The position numbers were made by a program, and so were the translations under genes. Under the pieces are notes generated by a model, which did not search any database, was not told the origin of the DNA, and worked only from the letters and a program-made list of their open reading frames with translations. Below are positions 1,439 to 7,669 of a stretch of 11,161 nt of DNA, piece after piece. Source of the stretch: an uncultured Duganella sp. (lineage in GTDB: Bacteria > Pseudomonadota > Gammaproteobacteria > Burkholderiales > Burkholderiaceae); contig CAMLRG010000178.1 in assembly GCA_946482335.1 (NCBI GenBank), forward strand, positions 1 to 11,161, given 5' to 3'. The stretch's first letter is position 1; each line of letters begins with the position of its first letter.

Positions 1439-1897
1439 CTACTCCAGCAACTTGGTCATGAGCAGTTCCGCCGAGCCGTAGCCGTATAGCGAATCGCTCT
1501 CCAATCCCTCCGTATCGTATGGCACGGACACTTCACGCTCCGGCTTGGCCGGATCGTCGCCATAAGTCGCCTGCCAGGCGCGCTTCAGCGCGTCGGCGCG
1601 CCGGATGAACATGGGCACCGGCCAATCGCTGCGCTGGAAGCCGACCGTATTGCCGATCACCGGCCAGCGCCCGTTAGCCACCGCGATGTCGCCGGTGCGG
1701 ATCACCTTCAGCGCATCGTTCGCCGACAGCTGCTGCACGTCCGCCAGCGTCGGCAGCGTCCAGTGGGTCGGCCCGAACAGGTAGGCCAGCATGACCTTCC
1801 CTTGCGGCGACAGGCGCGCCACCAATCCGGTGGCATACCCGCCATTTCTGAGCGGGATGGCAAACCAGCTGCCTTCCCGGTACGGCTGCAACTTCAT
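1439..1897 (-). CDS. Imm26 / phosphotriesterase-HocA family protein
   Basis: 152 residues with no signal peptide or membrane segment. The opening YREGSWFAIPLRNGGYATGL, then GKVMLAYLFGP, a central VIRTGDIAVANGRWPVIGN and W-P-V-P-M-F (about 93-98), match what I recall of the Imm26 / HocA family. Imm26 was predicted as an immunity protein of polymorphic toxin systems from gene neighbourhoods, and HocA is a reported organophosphate hydrolase; neither role can be inherited here, since no toxin gene is in the window and many members stand outside toxin loci. The ATG is preceded by AAAGGGA at good spacing and lies 9 bases after the stop of the ferritin-like gene; the next gene follows after 10 bases, so it is the middle of a tight operon. 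Recognition is by remembered sequence pattern, hence moderate confidence. Confidence 0.68.
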   Translation of the reverse strand: MKLQPYREGSWFAIPLRNGGYATGLVARLSPQGKVMLAYLFGPTHWTLPTLADVQQLSANDALKVIRTGDIAVANGRWPVIGNTVGFQRSDWPVPMFIRRADALKRAWQATYGDDPAKPEREVSVPYDTEGLESDSLYGYGSAELLMTKLLE

Positions 1898-1906
1898 TGA
1901 TTCCCT

Positions 1907-2206
1907 TTATTCGTAGTGGTACTGCGCGGCGATCGGTCCCGCCTTGAACAGTGCCTCCTTCATTTCCTTGTCCAACTTCGGGTCGCGCCGGCGCACCCAT
2001 TCCAGCAGCATTGCGATCTGCTTGCGCGTGGAATCGCGATGGCTGGCCATCACCAGCTTCAACTCTGGATCGGTGCACGTCTCGATGCGCTGGTTATGCA
2101 AATCCAGCGCCTCGATCTTCTCGCTCAGTGACGTCAAGGCCCGGTGCATGTCGAGCACCTGGGCATTGAGGTAGTCGCGCGGCTCGACCACGTGTTCCTG
2201 TGTCAT
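1907..2206 (-). CDS. Encapsulated-ferritin-like (EncFtn-type) small helical protein lacking iron ligands
   Basis: 99 residues from the chosen start, predicted to form two long helices. It aligns without gaps to my recollection of the core of Rhodospirillum rubrum encapsulated ferritin: MHRALTSLSEKIEALDLHNQ, then TDPEL, HRD, AMLLEW-RR-D and LF-GPI all have counterparts. In EncFtn two such antiparallel helical hairpins dimerise, and the interface holds di-iron ligands Glu32, Glu62 and His65. By alignment these are Lys30, Thr60 and Gln63 here, so a ferroxidase centre is not expected; the adjacent Trp-Tyr pair is Leu-His. The C-terminus stops at AAQYHYE with no encapsulation peptide, and no encapsulin gene is in the window. 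A longer reading from 2224 exists, but AAGGAG six bases before the 2206 ATG sets the start. It heads an operon with the Imm26/HocA and GFA genes. Function unknown; possible structural relative of EncFtn. Confidence 0.75.
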   Translation of the reverse strand: MTQEHVVEPRDYLNAQVLDMHRALTSLSEKIEALDLHNQRIETCTDPELKLVMASHRDSTRKQIAMLLEWVRRRDPKLDKEMKEALFKAGPIAAQYHYE

Positions 2207-2212
2207 CTCACT

Positions 2213-2218
2213 CTCCTT
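2213..2218 (-). promoter_or_regulatory. Shine-Dalgarno that fixes the start of the ferritin-like gene
   Basis: AAGGAG on the minus strand, six bases before the ATG at 2206. It lies inside the longer open frame that begins at 2224, which therefore is unlikely to be the real start. Confidence 0.75.
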
Positions 2219-2235
2219 GGGCATATCGATACAGC

Positions 2236-2264
2236 ATTGTCTGCCCGGGGCGCGGATTTCTCAA
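2236..2264 (-). promoter_or_regulatory. Candidate sigma-70 promoter of the ferritin-like/Imm26/GFA operon
   Basis: On the minus strand TTGAGA (2264-2259, 5 of 6 to the -35 consensus) is followed after exactly 17 bases by GACAAT (2241-2236, 4 of 6 to the -10). The start of transcription would fall near 2229, giving a leader of about 22 bases that carries the Shine-Dalgarno. It lies in the 124-base divergent spacer shared with the alcohol dehydrogenase gene. Prediction from sequence only. Confidence 0.45.
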
Positions 2265-2330
2265 GTTTAACAAGCCGTTTTGGCGGGTGTCGCACGGCTG
2301 GGCAGGATTTGCGCGATAATGCCCGGCACT

Positions 2331-3494
2331 ATGCAAAATTTCGAATTCCACAACCCAACCCGCGTCATCTTCGGCGTGGGCCAGATCGCTTCCCTGTCCA
2401 AACACATTCCCGCCGGCGCCCGCGTACTGATGCTGTACGGCGGCGGCAGCATCAAAGCCAACGGCACTTACGACGAAGTGCGGGCCGCCCTGGCGGGCCA
2501 TGGGCATCCGCTGCTCGAATTCGCCGGCATCGAGCCCAATCCACAATATGAAACGCTGATGAAGGCGGTCGACGTGGTGCGCCGCGAGAAGATCGATTTC
2601 CTGCTGGCGGTGGGCGGCGGCTCCGTGGTCGACGGCACCAAGTTCGTCGCCGCCGCCGCGCAGTACCAGGGCGATGCCTGGGACATCCTGAAGATCGGCG
2701 CCAAGGTGATCAAGTCCGCACTGCCTTTCGGCGCCGTGCTGACGCTGCCGGCCACCGGCTCTGAAATGAACAGCGCCAGTGTGGTCAGCCGCGCCGAGAT
2801 CCAGGAAAAGCGCGCCTTCATGAGCCCCCACGTGTATCCGCGCTTCTCGGTGCTGGATCCGGCCAAAACCCTGACCCTGCCGCTGCGCCAGGTCGGCAAC
2901 GGGGTGGTGGACGCCTTCGTCCACACCACCGAGCAATACCTGACCTACCCGGCCAATGCGCCGGTGCAGGACCGCTTTGCAGAAGGCTTGCTGCAAACCC
3001 TGGTCGAACTGGGCCCGCAAGTGCTGGCCCGCCCCGGCGACCTTGAGGTGCGCGCCAACATCATGTGGAGTGCCACCATGGCACTGAATGGCCTGATCGG
3101 CGTCGGCGTGCCGCAGGACTGGGCCACCCACATGGTCGGCCACGAACTGACCGCGCTGTTCGGCCTGGACCACGCGCAAACCCTGGCCATCGTCCTGCCG
3201 GGCATCCTGCAGGTGCGGCGCGACGCCAAACGCGGCAAGCTGCTGCAATACGCCGAGCGCGTGTGGGGCCTGCGCGAAGGCGGCGAAGACGAGCGCATCG
3301 ACGCCGCCATTGCCCGCACCCGCGCCTTCTTCGAGCAGATGGGCGTGCCGACCCGCCTGTCCGCCTACGGCCTGGGCCCGGCCGCCATCGATGCCACTTG
3401 CGCCGCGCTGGAAGCGGCCGGCCTCACCAGCCTGGGCGAGCGCCATGACATCGCACCGGCCGACGTGCGCCAGGCATTGCAACTGAGCCTGTAG
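2331..3494 (+). CDS. yqhD: YqhD-type iron/zinc-dependent, NADPH-linked alcohol dehydrogenase / aldehyde reductase
   Basis: 387 residues, the same length as E. coli YqhD and colinear with it from MQNFEFHNPTRVIFG onward. YqhD reduces a range of short aldehydes, including lipid-peroxidation products, with NADPH in the cytosol. Visible motifs: YGGGS (36-40) and LAVGGGSVVDGTKF (92-105) of the nucleotide-binding domain, LPATGSE (139-145), and the four metal ligands Asp194, His198, His267 and His281, with the E. coli numbering preserved exactly. That match supports the ATG at 2331. Upstream in-frame starts at 2280 and 2319 would add residues the family lacks, though no strong Shine-Dalgarno marks 2331; a start at 2319 adding MPGT cannot be excluded. 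It is transcribed divergently from the ferritin-like operon and is followed by a TPP riboswitch with its own likely promoter, so it is probably monocistronic. Confidence 0.93.
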   Translation: MQNFEFHNPTRVIFGVGQIASLSKHIPAGARVLMLYGGGSIKANGTYDEVRAALAGHGHPLLEFAGIEPNPQYETLMKAVDVVRREKIDFLLAVGGGSVVDGTKFVAAAAQYQGDAWDILKIGAKVIKSALPFGAVLTLPATGSEMNSASVVSRAEIQEKRAFMSPHVYPRFSVLDPAKTLTLPLRQVGNGVVDAFVHTTEQYLTYPANAPVQDRFAEGLLQTLVELGPQVLARPGDLEVRANIMWSATMALNGLIGVGVPQDWATHMVGHELTALFGLDHAQTLAIVLPGILQVRRDAKRGKLLQYAERVWGLREGGEDERIDAAIARTRAFFEQMGVPTRLSAYGLGPAAIDATCAALEAAGLTSLGERHDIAPADVRQALQLSL

Positions 3495-3669: not shown

Positions 3670-5757
3670 ATGACTCAAACACGCCTCAACCTGGCCGCAC
3701 TGGCCATCGCTTCCGCCTTCGCCCCTGCCGCCAGCGCGCAGGAGCAGAAAATGACCGAAGTGGTCATCACCGCCAACCGCGTGGCCGCCGAGCGTGCCTC
3801 CGTGGCCGGCTTCAGCGAGCAGCCCTTGCTGCAAACCCCCGCCTCGGTCAGCGTGCTGACCCGCGAACAGCTGCAGGAGTTGAACATCCGCAGCACCACC
3901 GATGCCGCCAAATTCGACGCCAGCATCGGCGATGCCTACAACGCCATCGGCTATGCCGAGCAATTCTCGATCCGCGGCTACAAACTCGATAACGCCAGCT
4001 CCTACCGCAAGGATGGCCACGCGATTTCGGGCGACACCCAGATCCCGCTGGAAAACAAGGAAAGCATCGAAGTGCTGCGCGGCCTGGCCGGCCTGCAGGC
4101 TGGCGTCGCCGCGCCGGGCGGTGTCGTCAACTACGTGACCAAGCGCCCCACCGACAACAATCTGCGCTCGGTGCTGTTCGAAGTGAGCGAGCGCGGCTCG
4201 GTGCTGGGCACCGTGGACCTGGGCGGCCGCTTCGAAGACCGACGCTTCGGCTACCGCATCAATGCCGCCGGCGAGCGCATGCGTTCCATCATCAAGGGCG
4301 CCGACGGCCACCGCAGCTTCGTGTCCGCCGCCTTCGACTGGCGCATCAGCCCGCAGGCCCTGCTGCAGATCGATGCCGACTACCAGAAGAAGTCGCAGAA
4401 ATCCGCACCCGGCTTCCAGCTGATCGGCGGCACCAGCCTGCCGGTGGTCGATGCCGACACCTTCCTGAACGACCAGCCATGGGCCAAGCCGGTGGAAACG
4501 GAGAGCAGCAATGTCGGCATCTCCTTCCAGTACCAGCTTGCGCCGGAATGGAAAGCCACCGTCAGCGCCAACCAGCACCGCTTCAAGCGCGACGACTACA
4601 CCGCCTTCCCCTACGGCTGCTCGAGCGAAGAGCTGTGGCCTGGCTACTGCGCCAACGGCGACTACGATGTCTACGATTACCGCAGCCTGGGCGAGGAAAA
4701 GAAGCCGCTGTCGGCCAAGGCCCAGTTGAACGGCCGCTTTGCGACCGGTGCCCTGCGCCATGATCTGACCGCCGGCCTGTCCTTCTTCAGCAACCATGAG
4801 CGCTGGGGCGATTACGTGTATGACTACGCGGGCGTGAGCAACATCTACCATCCGGTGGTGGTGCCGATGTCGAGCGGCGTGGTGGGCGCGCCTTCCGAGC
4901 GCCGCAGCGACAATGAGCGTGCCGCCTATGTGCAGGACATCATCGGCCTGTCCAACGGCCTGGCGCTGCATGCCGGCGCGCGCTACGTGTCCGTGCGCCG
5001 TTCGCAGGCCAGCGCGGACCCGACCCGCGACAACTTCTGGCTGCCGAACGTGGCGCTGGTGTTCAGCCCCGCGGCCAAGCTGTCGTACTACGCTTCTTAC
5101 GCCCAGGGCCTGCAGCACGGCGGCGTGGCGCCGATCGAGACCATCAATACCGGTACCGCACTGGCGCCGGGCAAGTCGAAGCAGGTGGAAGTGGGTGCCA
5201 AGGCCGAGATCAACGGCGTGGCGCTGTCGGCCGCGCTGTACCAGATCGAACAGGGCCTGGAATTCACCAACCCTGCCAATACCTTCGTGCGCAGCGGCCA
5301 GGACCAGCATCGCGGCCTGGAATTGTCGGCGCAGGGCAAGCTGACGCGCGAGCTGTTGCTGGGCGCGTCGATGGCGGCCATCCATACCGAACAGGATGGC
5401 ACGGGGTTGGCGGTATTCGACGGCAAGCGCGTGACCAATGTGCCGAACTTCAAGTCCACCGTCTGGGCCGATTACGCCGTGGCGGCAGTGCCGGGCATGA
5501 AGCTGAGCGCCAACTGGCAGTTCGCGGGCAGGAAGGCGTTCGACCAGGAGAACAAGGTCATGGTGCCGTCCTACCATGTGGTGAACCTGGGCGGGTCCTA
5601 CGCGACGCGCGTGGGCGGCTCGTCGGTGGTGCTGCGCGCGCAGGTGAAGAATGCGTTCGACAAGTTCTACTGGCGCGATGTGACGCCGGACCTGGGCGGG
5701 TACCTGTTCCCGGGCTCGCCGCGCACGTTCCACGTTTCGGCGCAGATTGATTTCTAA
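3670..5757 (+). CDS. TonB-dependent outer-membrane receptor under TPP control (probable thiamine or precursor uptake)
   Basis: 695 residues, normal for the family. A signal peptide covers about 1-23 (cleavage after ASA). A TonB-box-like TEVVITA follows at 29-35. The plug domain (about 45-155) includes FSIRGYKLD and EVLRGLAGLQAGVAAPGGVV, then VTKRPTDN begins the 22-strand barrel, and the chain ends in Phe (SAQIDF) as outer-membrane barrels do. Cys317 and Cys327 probably form a disulfide in a surface loop. By sequence it resembles the TonB-dependent siderophore receptor group, so automatic annotation would say siderophore; the TPP riboswitch directly upstream argues instead for thiamine, a thiamine phosphate or a precursor such as HMP, as for the receptors known to follow THI elements in other Gram-negative bacteria. 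Energy would come from TonB-ExbBD, not encoded here. Its 3' end meets a repeat and a convergent operon. Confidence 0.93.
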   Translation: MTQTRLNLAALAIASAFAPAASAQEQKMTEVVITANRVAAERASVAGFSEQPLLQTPASVSVLTREQLQELNIRSTTDAAKFDASIGDAYNAIGYAEQFSIRGYKLDNASSYRKDGHAISGDTQIPLENKESIEVLRGLAGLQAGVAAPGGVVNYVTKRPTDNNLRSVLFEVSERGSVLGTVDLGGRFEDRRFGYRINAAGERMRSIIKGADGHRSFVSAAFDWRISPQALLQIDADYQKKSQKSAPGFQLIGGTSLPVVDADTFLNDQPWAKPVETESSNVGISFQYQLAPEWKATVSANQHRFKRDDYTAFPYGCSSEELWPGYCANGDYDVYDYRSLGEEKKPLSAKAQLNGRFATGALRHDLTAGLSFFSNHERWGDYVYDYAGVSNIYHPVVVPMSSGVVGAPSERRSDNERAAYVQDIIGLSNGLALHAGARYVSVRRSQASADPTRDNFWLPNVALVFSPAAKLSYYASYAQGLQHGGVAPIETINTGTALAPGKSKQVEVGAKAEINGVALSAALYQIEQGLEFTNPANTFVRSGQDQHRGLELSAQGKLTRELLLGASMAAIHTEQDGTGLAVFDGKRVTNVPNFKSTVWADYAVAAVPGMKLSANWQFAGRKAFDQENKVMVPSYHVVNLGGSYATRVGGSSVVLRAQVKNAFDKFYWRDVTPDLGGYLFPGSPRTFHVSAQIDF

Positions 5758-6542: not shown

Positions 6543-7058
6543 TCAATCTCCGAGGAGTTGGGCTACCTGCCGCAAGCGCTCGTCCAGGCTGCCCGCAATG
6601 CGCGTATAGGGCACACCGCGCCGGGCCAGTTCGTCGAGCAGGATCGAGTCGATGATACCGCTGACATCCTCCTCCTCGTGATGCAACCCGTCAGGGATCC
6701 ACGCAAATTCCGGCTTGCATACCAGGGTGATGTCGTAAGGGCGCGACGCCGCGAGCTTTTCCAGTTGCTGGTCGATGCCGCCAAAATAATGGATGCTGTA
6801 GACCGCCGTCATCAGCGGCGTGGTATCGCAAAACAGGAATCGTCCACCTTGCGCGGCCAGCGCATCTTCACGCGCCACCTGCGTGGTGGCGATGTGGAAC
6901 TGGTCGGTCGATACCGGCACGCACTGGCGCGCCTCGCAGAAATCGCGCAGGTATTCGGGCACCCATGGCGCACCGTAACGCTGCGCCAGCGCCTGCGCCA
7001 GGGTGGTCTTGCCGGAGGATGCGGCGCCCAGGATGGCGACGCGGTAAGGCTGCTTCAT
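6543..7058 (-). CDS. NadR-like P-loop kinase (ribosylnicotinamide-kinase type, vitamin trapping)
   Basis: 171 residues forming one domain similar to the C-terminal ribosylnicotinamide kinase part of NadR; the N-terminal adenylyltransferase and regulatory domains are absent. Visible: Walker A GAASSGKTT (11-19), PEYLRDF (34-40, corresponding to the EY-R motif of NadR), LFCDTTPLMT (75-84, Walker-B-like with Asp78) and WIPDGLHHEEE (120-130, like the W--DG motif). Family members phosphorylate a nucleoside-like vitamin with ATP in the cytosol, which traps it after facilitated entry. The start overlaps the pnuC-type stop (ATGA), a strong sign of coupled function. Nicotinamide riboside is the default substrate; thiamine is a realistic alternative because PnuT relatives occur with TPP-regulated receptors like the one nearby. 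The P-loop fold is firm, the substrate is not. Confidence 0.82.
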   Translation of the reverse strand: MKQPYRVAILGAASSGKTTLAQALAQRYGAPWVPEYLRDFCEARQCVPVSTDQFHIATTQVAREDALAAQGGRFLFCDTTPLMTAVYSIHYFGGIDQQLEKLAASRPYDITLVCKPEFAWIPDGLHHEEEDVSGIIDSILLDELARRGVPYTRIAGSLDERLRQVAQLLGD

Positions 7059-7669
7059 TTCCAGACGATTGCCTCATCCGGCTCGGCGCTGCTGCCCTGC
7101 CAGGCCAGTAAGCCAAGGATTGCCATGCCGACGAACATGCCGTACAGGACGGCCGTCAACATCAAACCCTTGTGGATGTACAGCGCCACATACAGCACGT
7201 CGACGATGATCCAGACGTGCCAGTTCTCGATCTTCTTGCGCGACAGCAGTGCCTGGCCCACCAGGCTGCCGGCGGTCAGGAAGGCGTCCGCGTTCGGCAC
7301 GTCGGTATCGGTAAAGCTGCGCAGGAACCAGGCCAGCACGCCGAACATGGCCAGCCACGCCACGCCCGACAAGGCGCGGCCGCGCAGCGTCAGCGCCGAC
7401 ACCGCCAGCTCATGCCCTTGGTCGCCGCGCAGCCACTGGTACCAGCCCCAGATCGACACCGCAATGAACACTCCCTGCAGCGCCATGTCGCCATACAGCC
7501 TGGCGCCAAAGAACACCACGGCATACGTGGCGGATGACAGGATGGCGAACAGCCAGGCCCAGTGGTTCTGGCGGATATTCAGCCAGACCGTCGCCACCGA
7601 CAGCACGAAGGAAAGCAGCTCCAGCGGCGTGGTCGTCGCGATGCCTAACAGGGAAATCGATTCGTTCAC
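7055..7669 (-). CDS. pnuC: PnuC-family vitamin transporter (nicotinamide riboside or thiamine)
   Basis: 204 residues, highly hydrophobic, about seven predicted membrane helices as in PnuC structures. Family signatures are SIWGWYQWLRG (72-82) in the middle and, near the end, WHVWIIVDVLYVALYIHKG followed by LYGMFVGMAILG. PnuC proteins are inner-membrane facilitators (SemiSWEET-like fold) without their own energy source; a cytosolic kinase drives accumulation. PnuC itself carries nicotinamide riboside, PnuT thiamine and PnuX riboflavin, and I cannot separate them from sequence alone. The start is GTG, overlapping the S46 peptidase stop as GTGA, and the stop overlaps the kinase start as ATGA, so it sits in the middle of a translationally coupled set. 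The GTG lacks a good Shine-Dalgarno, consistent with dependence on upstream translation. Confidence 0.88.
   Translation of the reverse strand: MNESISLLGIATTTPLELLSFVLSVATVWLNIRQNHWAWLFAILSSATYAVVFFGARLYGDMALQGVFIAVSIWGWYQWLRGDQGHELAVSALTLRGRALSGVAWLAMFGVLAWFLRSFTDTDVPNADAFLTAGSLVGQALLSRKKIENWHVWIIVDVLYVALYIHKGLMLTAVLYGMFVGMAILGLLAWQGSSAEPDEAIVWK

Follow-up and report, generated by a model that had tools for sequence, protein, structure and literature searches.

Can a ferritin-like protein be kept by selection after its iron-oxidizing site has gone, and if so, for what? The question is raised by a short open reading frame in the 11,161-nucleotide stretch of DNA analysed here (the window), which a preliminary description took to encode a relative of the encapsulated ferritins (EncFtn) that keeps the helical scaffold while iron oxidation and cargo loading have been lost. 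Our analysis confirms the central observation and extends it from one protein to a clade; as judged from sequence, this is a known family in which the chemistry has been lost and the constraint has shifted.

Assignment to the EncFtn family

The frame runs on the minus strand from an ATG at 2206 to a stop codon at 1909-1907.

1907..2206, minus strand: EncFtn-like protein without ferroxidase ligands (pseudo-ferritin), 99 amino acids plus stop
2213..2218, minus strand: AAGGAG, resembling a ribosome binding site, 6 nt 5' of the pseudo-ferritin ATG, as read from the sequence

The preliminary description had claimed a gap-free alignment with the EncFtn core and proposed a profile search of that family as a check; both came out in its favor. 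The protein matches the Pfam family PF22277 (EncFtn-like) with 103.8 bits (E 4.2e-30; cut-off 27), and scores below the cut-offs of the NCBIfam models TIGR04535 (encapsulin-associated ferritin-like protein; 79.2 bits, cut-off 125) and EncB (35.5 bits, cut-off 90). Its best match in the PDB is NE0167 of Nitrosomonas europaea (3k6c; E 4.1e-26), to which it aligns without gaps at 45/90 identical positions (50%). Rru_A0973, the EncFtn of Rhodospirillum rubrum (5da5; E 7.5e-20), belongs to the same family by sequence and is ungapped over the core, with 36/88 identities (41%). A different register of this alignment, which had been named as a way in which Glu/Glu/His might return at the metal site, is ruled out: among ungapped registers from -6 to +6 against R. 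rubrum EncFtn, register 0 gives the 36 identities and all others at most 6, and none places Glu/Glu/His at the three ligand positions. These results support the view that the protein is a true relative with the EncFtn fold.

The short chain, the missing targeting peptide and the EncFtn-like sequence are those of the s-FLP class, of which 3k6c is the type, and NE0167 resembles the window protein in both length and want of a targeting peptide. NE0167 keeps the ferroxidase Glu/Glu/His, whereas all three are replaced in the window protein. Because the conserved ferroxidase center is missing, the protein is a variant of the s-FLP class and not a full member. From R. rubrum EncFtn it differs in having neither the ferroxidase ligands, nor the outer metal site, nor the targeting peptide, and its relatives are without a family-1 encapsulin.

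Loss of the metal site

The di-iron ligands Glu32, Glu62 and His65 of R. rubrum EncFtn align with Lys30, Thr60 and Gln63 of the window protein, and the ungapped alignment thus bears out the replacements first described. We count Trp38 as well among the metal-related residues, a role that we take it to have. Five further positions have changed from R. rubrum to the window (W38 to L36, Y39 to H37, H57 to S55, E61 to S59 and E64 to K62), while E31 and E34 are retained as E29 and E32; eight of ten metal-related residues are gone and two are kept. The roles of these residues, Trp38 excepted, follow the description in PMC5012862. Neither the EXXH motif nor the Glu32, Glu62, His65 set that marks a ferroxidase center is found in the window protein.

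2111..2122, minus strand: E29-K30-I31-E32, equivalent to E31/E32/L33/E34 of R. rubrum; the first of two halves of what was the di-iron and entry site, with Lys in place of E32
2096..2101, minus strand: L36-H37, equivalent by alignment to W38/Y39 of R. rubrum
2018..2044, minus strand: S55 to Q63, in which S55, S59, T60, K62 and Q63 correspond by alignment to H57, E61, E62, E64 and H65 of R. rubrum

Distribution of the ligand-less proteins

The loci closest to the window come from Pseudoduganella, Duganella and Massilia, with 84.8-86.6% DNA identity over 4.3-4.8 kb. A search for relatives gave 114 loci with a match, which after removal of identical proteins left 87 and, with the window, 88 distinct rows. 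Glu/Glu/His is present in 35 of these (canonical, EEH) and absent from 53 (degenerate; the window plus 52 loci). Outside the triad, all seven remaining metal-related residues are kept in 34/35 canonical rows versus 0/53 degenerate rows, and six of the 53 retain none of the ten. Named degenerate members belong to Massilia, Pseudoduganella, Duganella, Rugamonas and Janthinobacterium, with one Oxalobacteraceae MAG and one Burkholderiaceae MAG; the clade is one group of soil bacteria, its named members nearly all Oxalobacteraceae.

A family-level sample has a PF22277 match in 54/195 genomes, one in each, 27 of them scoring 137.9 bits or above and 27 no higher than 108.9 bits; residues were read in all 27 high-scoring and 25 of the 27 low-scoring rows (G156 and G199 were scored only), all in agreement. 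At class level, 105/369 genomes have matches, among which 102 whole-domain matches score at least 112.6 bits, the center genome G001 (99.5 bits) apart, and 13 more are partial or weak. The triad is kept in all 50 of the 102 whole-domain rows that were read, these being the top 30 by score and 20 of the bottom 22, and all ten residues are kept in 49 of them. The survey of homologues proposed in the preliminary description therefore gives a divided answer: 53/88 rows lack the triad, but 50/50 rows of the class sample keep it. The ferroxidase ligands are lost as first described, the loss is shared across the whole clade and, as far as sampled, it appears to be a property of that one clade. Plasmid records hold a match in only 2 of 72,556, both under 60% identity.

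In the literature searched, with most subscription journals outside its scope, ligand-less EncFtn-like proteins are reported nowhere. Databases name some of these proteins 'ferritin' or 'ferritin family protein' and many 'hypothetical protein'; as a statement of function, the 'ferritin' label is very likely wrong. A separate locus, L165 (G457:C227:5954-6205), has an EncFtn-like domain within a 492-residue open frame that carries all metal residues but for W38S and is possibly a fusion.

Orthology and gene neighbourhood

A tree computed after removal of the ten metal columns separates all 53 degenerate rows from the others by a branch with support of 85/86 and 86% of 200 bootstraps, although only 81 columns enter it, many forks are weak and the bootstrap had not settled. 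The degenerate branch lies inside the Burkholderiales s-FLPs. A larger, quicker tree (123 degenerate and 35 EEH rows) calls for three changes but is compatible with one. The pseudo-ferritin gene has these neighbors.

2331..3494 (scanned as 2328-3494), plus strand: YqhD-like iron-containing alcohol dehydrogenase, divergent neighbor that marks orthology with canonical loci
1439..1897, minus strand: Imm26-family protein, starting 9 nt past the pseudo-ferritin stop; syntenic, and also found without an EncFtn-like gene

Canonical loci L052, L065 and L071 have the order YqhD (divergent), s-FLP, RisS-type kinase (convergent); in the degenerate loci of Janthinobacterium, L017 for example, Imm26 stands between s-FLP and RisS (YqhD, s-FLP, Imm26, RisS), and in degenerate L024 RisS directly follows the EncFtn-like gene on its 3' side. 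In seven other canonical loci (L045, L056-L059, L061, L068) the EncFtn-like gene sits between genes for a CCG/GlpC-like Fe-S protein and DUF3501, as it does in degenerate L025 and L073. Since gene order and tree agree, the degenerate protein appears to be an orthologue, and not a duplicate, of the canonical short EncFtn-like proteins of the Burkholderiales, and the gene orders suggest that the metal site decayed in situ and within more than one neighborhood.

The CCG/GlpC-like Fe-S protein and DUF3501 are described in PMC5114695 as partners in aerobic-type rubrerythrin clusters (RBR-DUF3501-RFO). The nine loci just named resemble such clusters with the EncFtn-like gene in the rubrerythrin slot, and s-FLP may have replaced rubrerythrin there; the window's own clade differs in having another neighborhood, with DUF3501 in 0/12 main-clade genomes.

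Selection on the scaffold and the C-terminal tail

Pairwise dN/dS (Nei-Gojobori) between the window and its close relatives L001, L002, L003, L006 and L007 is 0.029, 0.022, 0.062, 0.036 and 0.060; it is 0.11 and 0.12 against L009 and L010, and rises to 0.25, 0.30, 0.29 and 0.44 against the more distant L013, L014, L017 and L093. The five lowest values support constraint on the EncFtn-like protein outside the metal site and agree with the earlier statement that the scaffold is kept; the rise with distance weighs on the other side. The constraint is most marked in one part of the chain.

1910..1954, minus strand: residues 85-99 (ALFKAGPIAAQYHYE), the C-terminal tail, on which the degenerate clade shows unusual constraint (test run on residues 85-98)

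With rows at least 95% alike dropped, here and in the charge tests below, we compared mean mismatch between canonical rows of the same family (n=25) and degenerate rows (n=38). At the ten metal sites it is 0.000 versus 0.742 (shift p 1.1e-6), three of these sites being constant in the canonical group by construction, as they define it, and the other seven not. In tail residues 85-98 the direction is reversed, 0.401 versus 0.195 (shift p 5.1e-4), while elsewhere in the protein it is 0.197 versus 0.358; both p values come from rank tests of shift that treat columns as independent. The test had first been run on groups of unequal taxonomic breadth, and the same-family canonical rows gave the same outcome. 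A motif of the tail, FKAGPI, occurs in 120/123 degenerate and 19/136 EEH rows, among the latter L055, L060 and L062, which stand next to the degenerate clade in the tree; on this distribution the tail would predate the loss of ligands, FKAGPI having apparently arisen before that loss and become fixed after it.

The region upstream of the gene also carries a recurrent pattern.

2236..2264, minus strand: promoter-like element TTGAGA-N17-GACAAT; 1 found, 0.3 expected in shuffles

The pattern (CTTGAG-like, a 17-nt spacer, GA(C,A,G)AAT) is present in 43/44 main-clade loci, 0/8 early-branching degenerate loci and 0/35 canonical loci, and 0.08% of upstream stretches match it after shuffling; as it was drawn from the aligned upstream regions of 16 of the same loci and the window, these counts are not independent of it, and the loci are kin. 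The figure of 43/44 is a fixed-anchor count with a slightly wider pattern, a first count having given 15/44 with some upstream stretches starting too late.

Encapsulin and targeting peptide

The window protein ends in AQYHYE and has no C-terminal encapsulin targeting peptide. A motif resembling one is found in 0/53 degenerate rows, the window included, in 1/35 canonical rows and in 14/50 rows of the class sample, and the portion of a review consulted here describes the s-FLP class as being without it (PMC11202242). Since the canonical short relatives also have none, its absence probably reflects no loss in this branch; the short s-FLP branch appears to have been without a targeting peptide ancestrally and probably never had one. 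The preliminary description was right that the peptide is absent. Its further reading of lost cargo loading is not supported, for the same reason and because family-1 encapsulin (PF04454) is found in 0/195 family genomes; it is likewise absent from 11 relatives searched (nine degenerate, two canonical), while 3/14 control genomes are positive.

A family-2 SrpI-like shell (PF19307) occurs in 2/12 relatives, both Janthinobacterium, at G008:C38:673775-674500 and G009:C83:141602-142330; both genomes carry the degenerate protein elsewhere.

Charges at the former metal site and a proposed model for assembly

The structural study of R. rubrum EncFtn reports that the acidic center keeps subunits apart until Fe2+ binds, so that the apo wild type is monomeric, and that the E32A and E62A variants are decamers without iron, whereas H65A is monomeric (PMC5012862). 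In 123 non-redundant degenerate rows, from which those with more than 25 gaps are excluded, the pair of charges at positions 32 and 62 is base/neutral in 48, neutral/neutral in 39, acid/base in 14, acid/neutral in 10, base/acid in 10 and neutral/acid in 2; opposite charges are thus paired in 24/123, and acid/acid and base/base both occur in none. Naive shuffles, which ignore kinship, expect 2.35 acid/acid and 6.60 base/base pairs, and both were zero in 0/20000 of them; the absence of like charges is thus significant with kinship ignored, whereas a kinship-aware test has just three pairs on supported branches, too few to decide. On the larger tree, whose resolution is poor, acid/base and base/acid pairs require four changes each. 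Over all ten sites the median charge moves from -6 in canonical (n=33) to 0 in degenerate rows (n=38). Such a pattern would be expected of an interface released from its metal gate. The window protein itself has Lys/Thr at 32/62 and no acid/base pair.

We propose the following model. By its sequence, an orthologue of the short, non-encapsulated s-FLPs has lost the di-iron ferroxidase center at the dimer interface, the repulsive Glu pair giving way to neutral residues or to an acid/base combination. With the repulsion removed, the ring would assemble without metal and would have no ferroxidase activity; metal-free assembly is not assured, since H65A of R. rubrum EncFtn is monomeric and the window has Gln63 at that place. 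What selection now keeps is the scaffold and, above all, its C-terminal tail. In published structures helix H4 meets the neighboring dimer at the rim of the ring (PMC11202242), so that the newly constrained tail, if part of this H4/rim region, may sit where stacking or docking could take place. That review also describes the last ten or so residues of s-FLPs as disordered, which weakens any precise placement of the tail. The final and weakest step is that the protein would most likely serve as a constitutive ring scaffold or adaptor, using the tail either to dock a partner or to stack.

We give a probability of about 0.53 to this reading of the protein as a metal-independent ring scaffold or adaptor working through its tail, analogous to ferritin L chains. 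A more specific form, a clade-wide pseudo-ferritin whose interface was rewired, apparently on several occasions, to charge pairs of either orientation, and which would serve as an iron-free scaffold with a partner bound via the tail, is tentative and in our judgment falls short of even odds. The human ferritin L chain offers the closest parallel in that its di-iron site is replaced while the assembly fold is kept (PMC11396501, PMC4642653), the former report describing a Lys62-Glu107 salt bridge in place of the iron site. The parallel is incomplete: the L chain builds a 24-mer cage rather than using the two-helix EncFtn fold, the relatives of the window show no active partner subunit, and a salt bridge here is presumed from the residues. 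Of the options first offered for this protein, the two that stand up best are that it is a structural relative and that it forms a new small helical family with a job of its own.

Alternative explanations

The EncFtn-like gene is present in 28 of 74 genus-level genomes and has no match in 46, which argues that its job is not essential; the gene is dispensable: either its function is helpful without being required, or it disappears where something else can stand in for it. Such patchiness would also be left by a dying gene, an s-FLP no longer needed whose metal site decayed and which is deleted whole, lineage by lineage. In 18 of the 20 Imm26-only loci inspected (39 in all) a TonB receptor gene lies close 5' of Imm26, as it would after deletion of the gene between, and an EncFtn-like ORF is found in 0/20; other ferritin/Dps-type genes (PF00210) are present in 12/12 relatives, though also in 14/14 control genomes. 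A gene in decay should hardly show dN/dS of 0.022-0.062 against five close relatives, internal stops in 0/28 genus matches, a tail less variable than that of canonical kin and a promoter-like element conserved in nearly all main-clade loci, and we consider this explanation unlikely, if the strongest of the rivals. We rate lower the possibility that the protein carries out metal, other cofactor or redox chemistry through other residues, such as E29/E32, H21, H37, the His at 65 of some relatives or Cys44. The window does keep the entry-site pair E29 and E32, His is retained at 65 in 15/53 degenerate rows, neither group shows any variation at H21, and Cys44 is close to fixation in degenerate rows (37/38 versus 22/33 canonical rows). 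Yet the ten former metal positions, E29 and E32 included, vary widely; His at tail residue 97 is found in only 24/38 degenerate rows; H21 is just as constant in the canonical proteins, and the part of PMC5012862 consulted here does not list it as a ferroxidase ligand; and a single Cys is by itself no metal site.

Very improbable, in our view, is a two-gene unit of Imm26 and the EncFtn-like gene, for example a toxin-immunity or decoy-immunity pair. Same-strand Imm26 does lie 3' of the EncFtn-like gene in all of L001-L023, L075, L076, L080 and L083-L093, only 9 nt away in the window, and the 67/74 genus genomes with Imm26 include all 28 with the EncFtn-like gene. But 39/74 have Imm26 with no PF22277 match, and the early-branching degenerate loci L024, L025, L072, L073, L077, L078, L081 and L082 have no Imm26 match, their genomes falling outside the 24/195 family genomes that do; loss of the ligands is therefore older than, or independent of, the pairing with Imm26. 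Neither protein has a match in PADLOC. Least credible of all is an inactive subunit assembling together with a true EncFtn of the same cell, the 'dominant partner' of the preliminary description. Retention of the EncFtn fold and the co-assembly of L-ferritin with H-ferritin (PMC4642653) would suit it; the positive genomes carry exactly one PF22277 copy each (54 at family and 28 at genus level), which rules out such a partner for the relatives of the window. Anti-phage defense was set aside, PADLOC giving no match for three proteins.

Significance of the clade

A metal site wholly lost in a gene so carefully preserved makes a new, iron-free job probable. From canonical through intermediate to fully degenerate members, the clade offers a natural series for how metal-gated assembly turns metal-independent, and it might supply EncFtn rings that lack iron chemistry.

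Other genes in the window

At 3670-5757 the window encodes a TonB-dependent siderophore receptor (TIGR01783, 365.7 bits; cut-off 223.5) whose synteny with the pseudo-ferritin gene holds across the main clade. Imm26 is usually near a TonB receptor gene, and a Pfam scan of 11 genes of the window shows no toxin family; the Imm26 protein may have been domesticated instead of acting as an antidote to a toxin. The stretch 6543-7669 holds a NadR-like AAA-domain gene overlapping a gene for a PnuC-type nicotinamide mononucleotide transporter, a probable NAD precursor salvage pair, and 37-960 encodes a protein with Sigma-70 region 4 and DUF6596, probably an ECF-type sigma factor cut by the start of the window.
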